Shown here in pieces: positions 3,659-38,083 of a stretch of DNA of 41,419 nucleotides. Numbering within the stretch: the first letter of the stretch is position 1; every line of letters starts with the position of its first letter. The notes below the pieces were generated by a model. The model searched no databases and was not told where the DNA came from. It was given only the letters and a program-made list of their open reading frames with translations. Both the position numbers and the translations under genes were made by a program. The stretch is from Bacteroidales bacterium (lineage in GTDB: Bacteria > Bacteroidota > Bacteroidia > Bacteroidales > F082), in NCBI GenBank assembly GCA_024400305.1, contig JAKSMX010000026.1:1-41419 (forward strand). The letters are read 5' to 3'.

Positions 3659-3694
3659 TTTCGCCTACTCTATAAGCTTTTCGGCTTCCGCTGT
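3659..3694 (-). repeat. Shared leader repeat, copy B
   Basis: This is a full-length copy of the 36-bp element, read on the minus strand and ending 17 nt before the ATG of the thioredoxin-like gene. Sequence between element and start (AT-rich, ending CAAAATT before ATG) is also similar to that at copy C, so the conserved unit spans the whole leader. Upstream sequence on the minus strand contains CACATTTG just before the element, a weak match to a -7 box, which would make the element the very start of the transcript. Confidence 0.85.
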
Positions 3695-4592: not shown

Positions 4593-4628
4593 TTTCGCCT
4601 ACTCTATAAGCTTTTCGGCTTCCGCTGT
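4593..4628 (-). repeat. Shared leader repeat, copy C
   Basis: This is a full copy of the element, 17 nt before the ATG of the 74-aa membrane protein. It differs from A and B in that ~190 bp on its other side lead to the divergent regulator gene. Much of that flank is also conserved next to copy D (starting CAAAATTG then TGAAATTAT, through to the CAATCAATT region). On the minus strand CAATTTTG lies about 13 nt before the element in both C and D, a near match to the -7 box, placing the likely transcript start at the element. Confidence 0.85.
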
Positions 4629-7573: not shown

Positions 7574-7609
7574 TTTCGCCTACTCTATAAGCTTTTCGGC
7601 TTCCGCTGT
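7574..7609 (-). repeat. Shared leader repeat, copy D
   Basis: This is a full copy of the element, next to a truncated gene on one side and a decayed copy of the regulator locus on the other. The flank from 7610 to about 7735 matches the flank of copy C (4629 to ~4755) closely, which shows that C and D come from duplication of a whole divergent promoter region and not only of the 36-bp element. Confidence 0.85.
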
Positions 7610-36427: not shown

Positions 36428-37123
36428 CTATAAATCATCGCCGTTGGCTTGATTATGCAAATTATCGTAATACATCAAAATTTTGTATTTTCCATAATTC
36501 TCATTTATCATAAACCAAACTGAATTTTTTGAAAATTTTTCCATAAAGTGTGATAAATAATCAACGAAAACTTCTAATTTTTCATCGTCATTTAAATCAT
36601 CAATATTTTTATTGTTTCCATATTTGTTATATACAAGACCCTGCATCTCTTTTATAATTGTTATTGAATCTATGGCTTGGTCAATCTGATAGAATGATGC
36701 TTCAAATCTTTTATTGTTGACACTCATTTCGTAAGATATATCTTCTTGTTCTGATATTTCATATTCTTTTAAAGAAATGTATCTTTGGTTATTACCAAAT
36801 TGTTGACATAACCTATTAAAACGAATTTTAATATCTGTTTCACTCGTAGAATAAGCGTCTTCAACCATTATACGATAAACTTTGTTGTTGTTTGTAACAA
36901 CGTGAATACGAACATCATAACCATTAAATTCCCCTTCCAAACAATCATAATCGTTGTTGTAATAATACCCTTTATTAATCAAGTTTTGCACCATTTCTCT
37001 CTTAGTACCATCAATTGGAATACCAAGAAACTTCGTAACTGTTGAAGTTATTTGAGTTTGTGCATTGACGAGAATGGAGACGCTAAATAATACAGTGACT
37101 GCTAATAATTTTTTTATTTTCAT
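36428..37123 (-). CDS. Secreted hypothetical protein, 231 aa
   Basis: The ATG at 37123 gives a signal peptide MKIKKLLAVTVLFSVSILVN with cleavage near NAQ. The mature part is about 210 residues, hydrophilic, rich in Asn, Tyr and Glu, without cysteines placed as a motif. FLGIPIDGTKREMVQNLINK near its start resembles small Bacteroidales periplasmic proteins that open with a 'KFLGIPVDG' phrase, whose role is unknown. Composition is AT-rich, as in the 1-5 kb accessory part. The gene lies 50 bp downstream of a terminator-like hairpin that ends a structured leader or RNA (37173-37371). Confidence 0.75.
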   Translation of the reverse strand: MKIKKLLAVTVLFSVSILVNAQTQITSTVTKFLGIPIDGTKREMVQNLINKGYYYNNDYDCLEGEFNGYDVRIHVVTNNNKVYRIMVEDAYSTSETDIKIRFNRLCQQFGNNQRYISLKEYEISEQEDISYEMSVNNKRFEASFYQIDQAIDSITIIKEMQGLVYNKYGNNKNIDDLNDDEKLEVFVDYLSHFMEKFSKNSVWFMINENYGKYKILMYYDNLHNQANGDDL

Positions 37124-37172
37124 TACGGACATTTTTGTTTCCAAGTCCCATAGAAACATTTTTATTCAACAC

Positions 37173-37198
37173 AAAAAGCGTGGAACTGTATGCCACAC
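37173..37198 (-). terminator. Terminator-like hairpin ending the structured RNA
   Basis: On the minus strand GTGTGG (37198-37193) pairs with CCACGC (37183-37178), one G-U included, followed by TTTTT (37177-37173). It lies between the structured RNA and the 231-aa protein gene. Confidence 0.6.
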
Positions 37199-37371
37199 TG
37201 CAGATGAAGGTCGTAGGAAAAACCCGAAAACACAAACATGGAACAACAGCCCACGCAATATTGCGTGAAACCATTATGAAATCTTGTGTTTTCAAATGAA
37301 AATTTCCTACGTTTTCATCTACAAGATAAGCATAACGCTTCTATAATAAACCACGATTGGCGAACCAATCG
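37173..37371 (-). ncRNA. Structured RNA candidate, ~199 nt, with own promoter and terminator
   Basis: Read on the minus strand the transcript would start with hairpin CGATTGG-TTCG-CCAATCG (37371-37354). A long rod follows: GTAGATGAA (37322-37314) pairs with TTCATCTGC (37208-37200), CGTAGGAAA (37311-37303) with TTTCCTACG (37220-37212), GAAAACACAA (37293-37284) with TTGTGTTTTC (37235-37226). ATGG (37274-37271) pairs with CCAT (37241-37238), and the palindrome CACGCAATATTGCGTG (37267-37252) is inside. The rod is interrupted by internal loops. A terminator ends it. Size and rod shape recall 6S-like RNA or the Bacteroidales-1 RNA motif, but neither is proven. The separate 5' hairpin argues against a classic 6S closing stem. 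It could instead be an attenuating leader of the 231-aa protein gene. Confidence 0.65.
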
Positions 37372-37375
37372 GGTG

Positions 37376-37383
37376 CAAAAGTA
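37376..37383 (-). promoter_or_regulatory. -7 box of the structured RNA
   Basis: TACTTTTG on the minus strand is a full match to the -7 consensus and ends 5 nt before the 5' hairpin of the RNA candidate. No TTG stands at 18-21 nt upstream; that region is A/T only. The divergent toxin-antitoxin promoter begins 20 bp away. Confidence 0.6.
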
Positions 37384-37403
37384 ATAAATTTTCACATAAA
37401 CAT

Positions 37404-37432
37404 TTGCATTTTTTGAAAAAATATTACTTTTG
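37404..37432 (+). promoter_or_regulatory. Promoter with palindromic operator of the PIN toxin-antitoxin pair
   Basis: TTG at 37404-37406 and TACTTTTG at 37425-37432 match the -33/-7 pattern with an 18-nt spacer, 16 nt before the ATG at 37449. A perfect palindrome ATTTTTT-G-AAAAAAT (37408-37422) fills the spacer, where an antitoxin could repress. Confidence 0.75.
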
Positions 37433-37448
37433 CAAAAAATTTTTAAAA

Positions 37449-37664
37449 ATGGAGGCAACTGTTTTTAATCCGATACAAGTTCATCTACTTAAGATGTTCG
37501 CTCTTGATAGCACCCAAAGCGGTCTTGTTGAACTTAAGGACGTGCTTTATCGCCATTATTCGGCGCAAATGAATGCACAGCTTGAGGAAATGTGGCAAAT
37601 TGGGGAGTTAAGCCAAGAACGTCTTGATGAAATCAACAAAATGGATTTGCATAAATTGCAATAA
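37449..37664 (+). CDS. Antitoxin of PIN-domain pair, 71 aa
   Basis: The ATG at 37449 is chosen because the promoter lies upstream of it; a TTG at 37404 is in the promoter. The protein is helical and acidic (MEATVFNPIQVHLLKMFALD, then EMWQIGELSQERLDEINKMD). It resembles small antitoxin-like proteins found ahead of PIN genes in Bacteroidales. No classic DNA-binding fold is obvious. It sits 5 nt before the PIN gene in the same direction. The antitoxin role is inferred from gene order. Confidence 0.7.
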   Translation: MEATVFNPIQVHLLKMFALDSTQSGLVELKDVLYRHYSAQMNAQLEEMWQIGELSQERLDEINKMDLHKLQ

Positions 37665-37669
37665 AGATT

Positions 37670-38083
37670 ATGAGAATAGTTCTGGATACCAACTGCTTGA
37701 TTCAGATTATCTCGCCACATGGCAAATATCACGATGTTTGGTTGTCACTTGTGGACGGCCAAAATATTTTGTGTATTTCAAATGAGATAATTGATGAATA
37801 TGTTGAGATTTTAGAAAGATTGTTCAACCATAATTTGGCAGAGGCGGTTGTGAAAACGATAGTTAACAGTCCTTTTGTTGAGTCGGTTACTCCATTTTAC
37901 AAATTTGAACTAATAAAAGCTGACCCTGATGATAACAAGTTTGTTGATTGTGCCATTGCAGCCAATGCTCGATATATTGTAAGCAATGACCGTCATTATG
38001 ATGTACTTCGAAATATAAAATTCCCTCGTGTTGAAGTCCTTTCTTTGATTGATTTTACAAAGATAATAAAAAGTACTTTTTGA
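37670..38083 (+). CDS. PIN-domain ribonuclease toxin, 137 aa
   Basis: The sequence opens MRIVLDTNCLIQ, with the first acidic residue of the PIN active site at Asp6. SNEIIDEYVEIL (near 40) supplies the conserved Glu, and KADPDDNKFVDCAIAANARY (near 85-104) and VSNDRHY the remaining acidic residues, as in the COG1569-type 'putative toxin-antitoxin system PIN' family. PIN toxins cut RNA in a metal-dependent way. Together with the 71-aa protein it appears to be a complete module. No terminator is clear in the 60 bp after it. Confidence 0.88.
   Translation: MRIVLDTNCLIQIISPHGKYHDVWLSLVDGQNILCISNEIIDEYVEILERLFNHNLAEAVVKTIVNSPFVESVTPFYKFELIKADPDDNKFVDCAIAANARYIVSNDRHYDVLRNIKFPRVEVLSLIDFTKIIKSTF

Follow-up and report, generated by a model that had tools for sequence, protein, structure and literature searches.

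An RNA of about 170 letters is conserved in gut Bacteroidales, and Rfam 15 contains no family for this leader. The copy described here lies on the minus strand of the window, by which we mean the whole 41,419-nt stretch analyzed (positions 1 to 41,419 of contig JAKSMX010000026.1 from a Bacteroidales bacterium). With moderate confidence, we read it as a bistable cis-regulatory 5′ leader of the exported-protein gene at 37123-36428, probably acting on translation. If this is correct, a widespread class of gut-bacterial mRNA leaders, present in about a third of the sampled Bacteroidales genomes and in up to 15 copies per genome, is missing from the standard RNA library. An earlier note made from the letters of the window had singled out the same 210 bp; its observation is confirmed and its interpretation partly supported, while the downstream pseudoknot, the second fold and the large family go beyond it. 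The parts of the RNA are, in the order of transcription:

37376..37383, minus strand: -7 box TAnnTTTG, located by position, of a promoter that we take to be of the Bacteroides type
37354..37371, minus strand: 5′ hairpin CGAUUGG-UUCG-CCAAUCG (-7.7 kcal/mol, z -4.4)
37172..37342, minus strand: rod, the family core, 171 nt; match to covariance model R1 at 170.3 bits (this copy is also in the training set)
37322..37341, minus strand: 5′ arm, with the 3′ arm (rod) or mid1 (two-hairpin fold) as partner
37319-37312, minus strand: strand X, part of an alternative local hairpin at 37295..37319
37311-37304, minus strand: 5′ strand of helix P5, inside the X local hairpin
37302-37295, minus strand: local partner of X, which closes the alternative local hairpin with it
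37263..37287, minus strand: mid1 arm, ACAAGAU...GUUUCACGC, with the 5′ arm (two-hairpin fold) or mid2 (rod) as partner; both pairings covary
37267-37252, minus strand: apical 16-nt palindrome CACGCAAUAUUGCGUG, the apex of the rod
37237..37256, minus strand: mid2 arm GCGUGGGCUGUUGUUCCAUG, with mid1 (rod) or the 3′ arm (two-hairpin fold) as partner
37209..37225, minus strand: GGGU, 3′ strand of P5, ACC; the 3′ half of helix P5 and the flanking GGY/RCC pair
37175..37198, minus strand: 3′ arm, containing the bulge CAGUUCC (37188-37182) and the closing strand ACGCUU
37181-37172, minus strand: ACGCUUUUUG, which closes the rod
37137..37157, minus strand: small hairpin GUUUCUA-UGGGACU-UGGAAAC (-4.7 kcal/mol, z -3.6)
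37149-37144, minus strand: loop GGGACU of the small hairpin, with the bulge segment AGUUCC as partner; covaries over 112 relatives
36428..37123, minus strand: small exported-protein gene, MKIKKLLAVTVLFSVSILVNAQ..., an ORF and the putative target of the leader

The stretch 37383-37173 has a predicted minus-strand folding energy of -79.9 kcal/mol, compared with a mean of -45.5 (sd 4.0) for shuffled sequences (z -8.7; 0 of 200 reach it), and folding of the plus strand is weaker (z -6.1). The strong structure, the UUCG hairpin and the apical palindrome that the earlier note had proposed are thus all found on this strand. Its judgment that the stretch holds no convincing gene is likewise upheld: a coding explanation through the 70-aa ORF at 37295-37083 was rejected because the frame is not conserved, rod lengths in 114 representatives being spread over all residues modulo 3 (49/39/26).

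A BLAST search with the stretch returned a second copy in the window genome; 22 of 60 genomes, counting that of the window, have matches. The covariance model R1 was built from 26 aligned rods and spans 169 positions and 40 pairs. At E ≤1.5e-6, it detects nine copies in the window genome, of which two score strongly, at 144-170 bits, and the other seven less so, at 39-75 bits; one further match is an antisense echo of the first copy. Of 99 genomes from the genus, 90 carry one or more matches, with a maximum of 15 per genome; restricted to good genomes, the count is 42 of 46. Across the order Bacteroidales, 97 of the 295 genomes sampled have a match, as do 62 of the 177 genera. The phylum sample gave 7 of 198, one of them the window genome and the other six from the same class with 45-72 bits. 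A pattern scan of named genomes yielded at least 120 matching stretches, 102 of which R1 confirms (69/80 and 33/40); the confirmed carriers listed include Bacteroides gallinarum, B. acidifaciens, Phocaeicola coprophilus, Parabacteroides faecis and Butyricimonas synergistica, Alistipes and Prevotella records, and one record labeled Firmicutes (L059). The 18 unconfirmed matches come from other phyla in 16 cases, by record label. Among stretches from viral contigs, R1 confirms 12 of 22 and leaves 10 unconfirmed.

Selection on the RNA was assessed with a set of 88 non-training sequences (A3) that share <88% identity with each other and with the training set, candidates at ≥88% identity having been left out beforehand. 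This is the alignment of homologues that the earlier note had proposed, and compensatory changes are present: standard pairs fill 94.6% of cells (81.1% in shuffled and 33-48% in slid controls), 28 of 40 pairs have changed on both sides (19.0 shuffled), and helix P5 is paired in 100% of cells, although all of these counts lean upward since A3 was fitted to the rod structure. None of 500 shuffles reaches any of the five pairing measures. G-U cells outnumber A-C cells by 475 to 57, and by 150 to 51 when pairs dominated by G-U are excluded, which argues that this strand is selected as RNA and not as a DNA hairpin.

This asymmetry bears on a DNA-level reading, in which the arms would act as single-stranded DNA hairpins (REPIN-, attC- or origin-like) in mobility or cargo exchange. 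In REPINs, two inverted hairpins can together fold as one long hairpin, a layout that the rod and its dispersed copies share; the breakpoints between mobile-element backbone and cargo described below fall at the rod end, and a gene that appears RAYT-like by eye (L219, 4955-5971; no Pfam match) lies 1-3 kb from two copies at that locus. Relatives of this gene occur in 14 of 60 genus genomes; they were not found in the window genome, which holds nine copies, or in G018, G031, G586 and G597, which have 12, 9, 10 and 9 matches. Given those absences, and with the RAYT identity judged by eye, dependence on a RAYT/REPIN system was rejected. Unlike REPINs, the RNA has strand-specific pairing and no evident dependence on a transposase gene, and most copies sit in 5′ UTRs at narrow distances from the -7 box and the start codon, whereas strands of a DNA element should be equally selected. 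We consider the DNA-level reading very improbable.

We take TAnnTTTG to be the -7 box of a Bacteroides-type promoter. That name for the promoter type agrees with the available part of PMC7366714. The earlier note had called the box at 37383-37376 a promoter element. Of 114 representatives, 104 have this motif in the 150 nt upstream (letter-shuffled upstream regions give 13.0, maximum 23), mostly 32-48 nt from the rod. In relatives, the sequence and length of the 5′ hairpin vary, but by eye a hairpin is often present. An ORF was called within 260 nt downstream of 164 of 170 loci, and 134 of these 164 genes start 30-110 nt past the rod. This conserved structure therefore occupies what the promoter motif and the ORF together suggest is a 5′ UTR, and the copies appear to be 5′ leaders rather than 6S RNAs; the suggestion that the RNA leads a secreted-protein gene has held up. 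For the window gene, the signal-peptide-like N-terminus and the spacing in relatives lead us to infer a start at 37123 rather than 37159.

The same note had leaned toward a free RNA recalling 6S or other Bacteroidales noncoding RNAs, or a leader with a built-in terminator. A free small RNA, either 6S-like or an attenuator product of about 210 nt ending at a terminator, would be consistent with the presence of its own promoter, with the U-rich tail of about half the copies and with the three terminator-like sites on the minus strand (0.6 in shuffles; only loops of 3-8 scanned), two of which fall at the apical hairpin and the third at the 5′ hairpin. The U-tailed terminator fares unevenly: at least six T in the 8 nt after the closing stem are found in 60 of 112 relatives, whereas the scan of loops 3-8 detected no terminator at the rod end. 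As the T-run follows the stem in just 60 of 112, a terminator is not a general feature of the relatives. Copies mostly precede genes, and the structure extends past the rod into the leader hairpin, both of which argue against a free RNA and make it quite improbable.

Comparison with known families points the same way. 6S RNA is a rod of roughly 180 nt with a large central bubble; the rod here is similar in outline but lacks such a bubble, is multicopy, is a leader, and matches neither the 6S nor the 6S-Flavo model of Rfam at 37172-37383. Bacteroidales-1, Flavo-1, DUF805/DUF805b and FopS were also rejected, none reaching its gathering score on the rod, so that the Rfam scan proposed in the earlier note gave no support to a 6S-like or other known free RNA. 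At gathering score, the window contains only DUF805b and tRNA matches, both elsewhere in it. A permissive scan of 36900-37600 (E ≤10) gave 12 matches, all below gathering score; MIR398 was the best of those on the rod, at 24.2 bits where 55 are required (E 0.0055). No family was detected on the rod in 19 loci with relatives at gathering score, nor, at that score, in five loci (three of them repeated) scanned at E ≤0.5. The FopS sRNAs of Bacteroides are, according to the available part of PMC11697453, also multicopy paralogous RNAs with canonical promoters, but they have a single-stranded 5′ stretch and a terminator hairpin and act in trans; the FopS model in L053 matches a place other than the rod. 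This leader RNA is not described in the available parts of the literature; PMC8040213, by its available part, predicts thousands of RNAs, and its supplements may hold an unnamed partial prediction of it. Like orphan riboswitch candidates and other cis-regulatory leaders, the RNA appears as a structured 5′ leader with exclusive pairings and a pseudoknot near the start codon, but it differs from them in having two whole-domain folds and no preferred downstream gene family.

A second fold of two hairpins, which excludes the rod, is supported by covariation. Folded alone, the 5′ half of the window copy gives one hairpin (UUAUG...AUCUUGU with ACAAGAU...CAUAA), and the 3′ half gives one as well; across the non-training set, separate halves fold in this way with at least 8 pairs in 87 of 88 cases (5′) and 88 of 88 (3′), with medians of 18 and 20 arm pairs (2 of the 88 rows were dropped in the analysis of separate halves and of bulge-mid2 pairing). 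In permutation tests over the 88 sequences, which leave relatedness in and use an alignment fitted to the rod model, the duplex energy is -17.7 against -15.2 permuted for 5′ arm-mid1 (z -13.1), -20.1 against -18.0 for mid2-3′ arm (z -9.1), and -16.2 against -13.9 for the rod pair mid1-mid2 (z -9.6). The 5′ arm and 3′ arm show no covariation beyond chance (z +0.5), because both are nearly invariant. Stretches that are largely unpaired in the rod model covary within each half (z -8.3 and -9.6) but do not clearly covary across the halves (z -1.3; the other cross-controls give +1.6 and +2.2).

Two smaller, inner pairings are part of the two-hairpin fold as well. Strand X covaries with its local partner (z 6.5, 4.8 for the variable part; four control segments -1.0 to -2.3), and the X hairpin forms in 81 of 88 predicted half transcripts (47-57 with the segment shuffled) and in 0 of 88 full rods; in the window sequence alone it is unexceptional (-2.8 kcal/mol, z -1.5). 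The inner GGY/RCC pair is U-A in 78 of the 88 sequences, C-G in 7, U-G in 2 and another combination in 1, and the pairing overall scores 3.75 against 3.66 permuted (sd 0.044), about 2 sd for a near-invariant element. Bulge-mid2 pairing, also near invariant, shows a slight excess on its own (4.33 against 4.16 permuted, sd 0.05). On average, the rod is predicted to be 15.5 kcal/mol (range 4.3-26) more stable than its two halves added together, a figure that leaves the contact between the hairpin loops uncounted; that 7-bp contact (P5) is worth about -10 as a duplex. With this advantage to the rod, the two-hairpin fold may be a mere folding intermediate.

The bulge, defined as the 7 nt preceding the closing ACGC strand, is CAGUUCC in 42 of 112 relatives and is complementary to the loop of the small hairpin downstream; covariation supports a pseudoknot between the two. 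The pairing score is at least 5 in 87 loci, and the site starts 18-29 nt after the closing 7-mer in 72 of these; bulge/loop examples are CAGUUCC/GGAACUG, CAGAGCC/GGCUCUG, CAGUACC/GGUACUG, CAGCACC/GGUGCUG and CGGCUCC/GGAGUCG. Over the 112 relatives (rows L013, L203 and L218 were dropped), the mean score is 5.63 compared with 4.83 for permuted bulges (sd 0.08; maximum of 200 permutations, 5.08), and 64 score at least 6 against a permuted mean of 26 and maximum of 35. For each of the 70 loci with a bulge other than CAGUUCC, the locus's own bulge was compared with CAGUUCC: it is the better fit in 47 and the poorer in 15, with 8 ties. Scores fall below 5 in 25 of 112, including three of six tested weak copies of the window genome. 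A stem flanking the pseudoknot is weakly supported, scoring at least 4 in 80 of 87 against 60.2 in the shuffled control. The paired loop ends at a median of 25 nt upstream of the ATG. In 83 of 85 loci the distance is within 150 nt, with one group of 59 at 11-31 nt and another of 24 lying farther off; in the window, AGUUCC/GGGACU is placed 20 nt upstream of the ATG at 37123. In L235 (Parabacteroides distasonis), the ATG follows the rod by 16 nt, leaving no room for the small hairpin.

In L065, the downstream gene and flank are homologous to those of the window copy (L001), but the promoter-leader block (-94 to +4) is a 93.7% match to L101, and the bulge has lost its fit to the loop downstream; such a mosaic suggests that recombination moves leaders between genes. 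L021 (G017:C16, 1547-1590) is a natural deletion in which the whole rod is gone. It still carries the promoter and 5′ hairpin, the closing stem, and the bulge with its matching loop downstream, which would suit a leader built of separable sensor and output parts. One exact pattern for the short rod-less form had no match in the 295 genomes, leaving L021 as the sole case here.

These features suggest how a bistable leader might work. Transcription would start past the -7 box, and the 5′ hairpin would cap the message, followed by the 171-nt domain with its two folds. During synthesis, the 5′ arm and mid1 would fold together, and so would mid2 and the 3′ arm; the two hairpin loops, complementary over the 7 bp of P5, could kiss, and branch migration could convert the two hairpins into one long rod. 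As long as the two hairpins persist, CAGUUCC would be paired with GGGCUG of mid2. The pseudoknot requires the rod because the two-hairpin fold puts CAGUUCC into the stem of the second hairpin; in the rod, the segment would be a free bulge able to pair with the GGGACU loop about 20 nt upstream of the start codon. If both folds are used in cells, the choice between them would decide whether the pseudoknot stands beside the ribosome landing site and would thereby set translation, so that exclusive pairings appear tied to an expression platform. We lean weakly toward the rod with pseudoknot as the ON state: with a median distance of 25 nt from its end to the ATG, the pseudoknot would not cover the landing site.

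The genes behind the leader are diverse: no Pfam family is found in more than 4 of 107 representative proteins, the remaining 7 of 114 representatives being left out of the gene-family scans for want of a called ORF of 55 aa. Among the matches listed are surface leucine-rich repeats (4), PorV (2), HxsD (3) and HSDR_N nucleases (3), with single cases of DarT, GmrSD and a DNA methylase; PorV-like genes behind the leader recur in three genus genomes (L015, L019, L028). Judged by a crude signal-peptide rule, 67 of the 107 proteins downstream look exported, compared with 80 of 352 flanking ORFs of at least 100 aa (odds ratio 5.7, p 7e-14, without correction for relatedness). The motif F[KLM]G[IV]P[IVL][DE]G (FLGIPVDG-like) marks a family of small exported proteins that accounts for 18 of 164 and includes the window gene, whose product has no Pfam or NCBIfam match. 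No downstream gene theme points to a ligand. With no gene family dominant, we favor a general physiological signal or an RNA-binding protein over a pathway metabolite.

The same diversity is consistent with a constitutive portable leader, in which promoter, 5′ hairpin and rod would protect the message and standardize an insulated translation start, and the second fold would be only the folding path. That the rod is the predicted ground state, and that the leader occurs at the joint between backbone and cargo of mobile elements, fit this explanation as well. A stabilizer, however, needs no conserved inner sequence, pseudoknot or covarying alternative arms, and we consider the explanation unlikely.

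In one mobile-element lineage, the leader marks the joint between backbone and cargo. The backbone of this mobilizable element comprises a tyrosine recombinase, a DUF5906 protein, a Toprim protein and MobV, and it is 92-96% identical among L119, L169, L170, L226 and L231; the identity breaks off near the rod end, from 4 nt ahead of it to 8 nt past it, with different cargo beyond, and L169 and L170 have their right end in common too. Leaders of some locus pairs are 92-96% identical, and their best alignment stops near the RNA ends. L007 and L186 belong to different families; their alignment runs from -48 to -3 of the rod, their downstream genes differ, and both carry diverged MobV remnants upstream. 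A similar layout, with a hypothetical protein in the MobV position, occurs upstream of a DUF4433 protein in Parabacteroides distasonis, and one precedes blaMUN-1 on B. uniformis pBUN1. R1 confirms six named plasmid regions (seven plasmid records were matched by BLAST), and phage records are also among the BLAST matches. MobV or a remnant lies upstream of 17 of 183 leader hits (duplicates included; 146 have at least 1.4 kb of upstream DNA). Conversely, 15 MobV matches were found in 11 of 149 genomes and a leader follows just two, so that dependence on MobV elements was rejected and the link holds for part of them; no MobV relative was found in the window genome.

Returning to the bistable leader, its wider form would be a portable, gene-independent two-state switch before exported and horizontally acquired genes, through which one signal would govern many accessory genes; the cargo would then be the defense, toxin-like, surface and resistance genes of integrative mobilizable elements. 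We offer this extension tentatively and think it rather doubtful. If true, it would give a first handle on joint RNA-level control of unrelated exported and imported genes, and on how new mobile-element cargo comes under host control, and the two-fold architecture makes exact, testable predictions.

Several further observations concern individual loci. In pBUN1 (L238, 6044-6261), on a plasmid typed as mobilizable, the leader stands directly upstream of the ESBL gene blaMUN-1, and by eye its pseudoknot has covaried (UAGUCC/GGGCUA). The words upstream, promoter, mobilizable and untranslated do not occur in the available part of PMC10989005, on blaMUN-1. A second conserved element, GUUGYGCCCGACACG, is found between the pseudoknot hairpin and the start codon in 14 of 114 leaders, L003, L010, L029 and L181 among them. 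Four exact copies occur in the window genome, on C9, C17 (two) and C76; those at C17:14359 and C76:65681 have no detected leader copy within 500 nt.

The window also contains four DUF805b RNAs (RF02914) on the minus strand, at 2216-2248, 3662-3694, 4596-4628 and 7577-7609. DUF805b resembles the present RNA in being a small Bacteroidales leader hairpin of the same genome; it differs in its 35-nt length and its sequence, and matches neither the window rod nor the GGGACU hairpin. In L181 (1398-1433), from the same genome as the window, a DUF805b lies 40 nt past a weak rod copy, and with DUF805b beside the leader, Bacteroidales 5′ UTRs look modular. The window copy is flanked on one side by a PIN-type pair and by genes that we take to be nadD-like and yicC-like, and on the other by a helix-turn-helix gene and an ATPase gene. 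The PIN-domain protein and its small upstream partner (37404-38083, plus strand) are divergent from the leader, and a pair similar by eye, at L222 14493-15127, lies within 3 kb of a leader.
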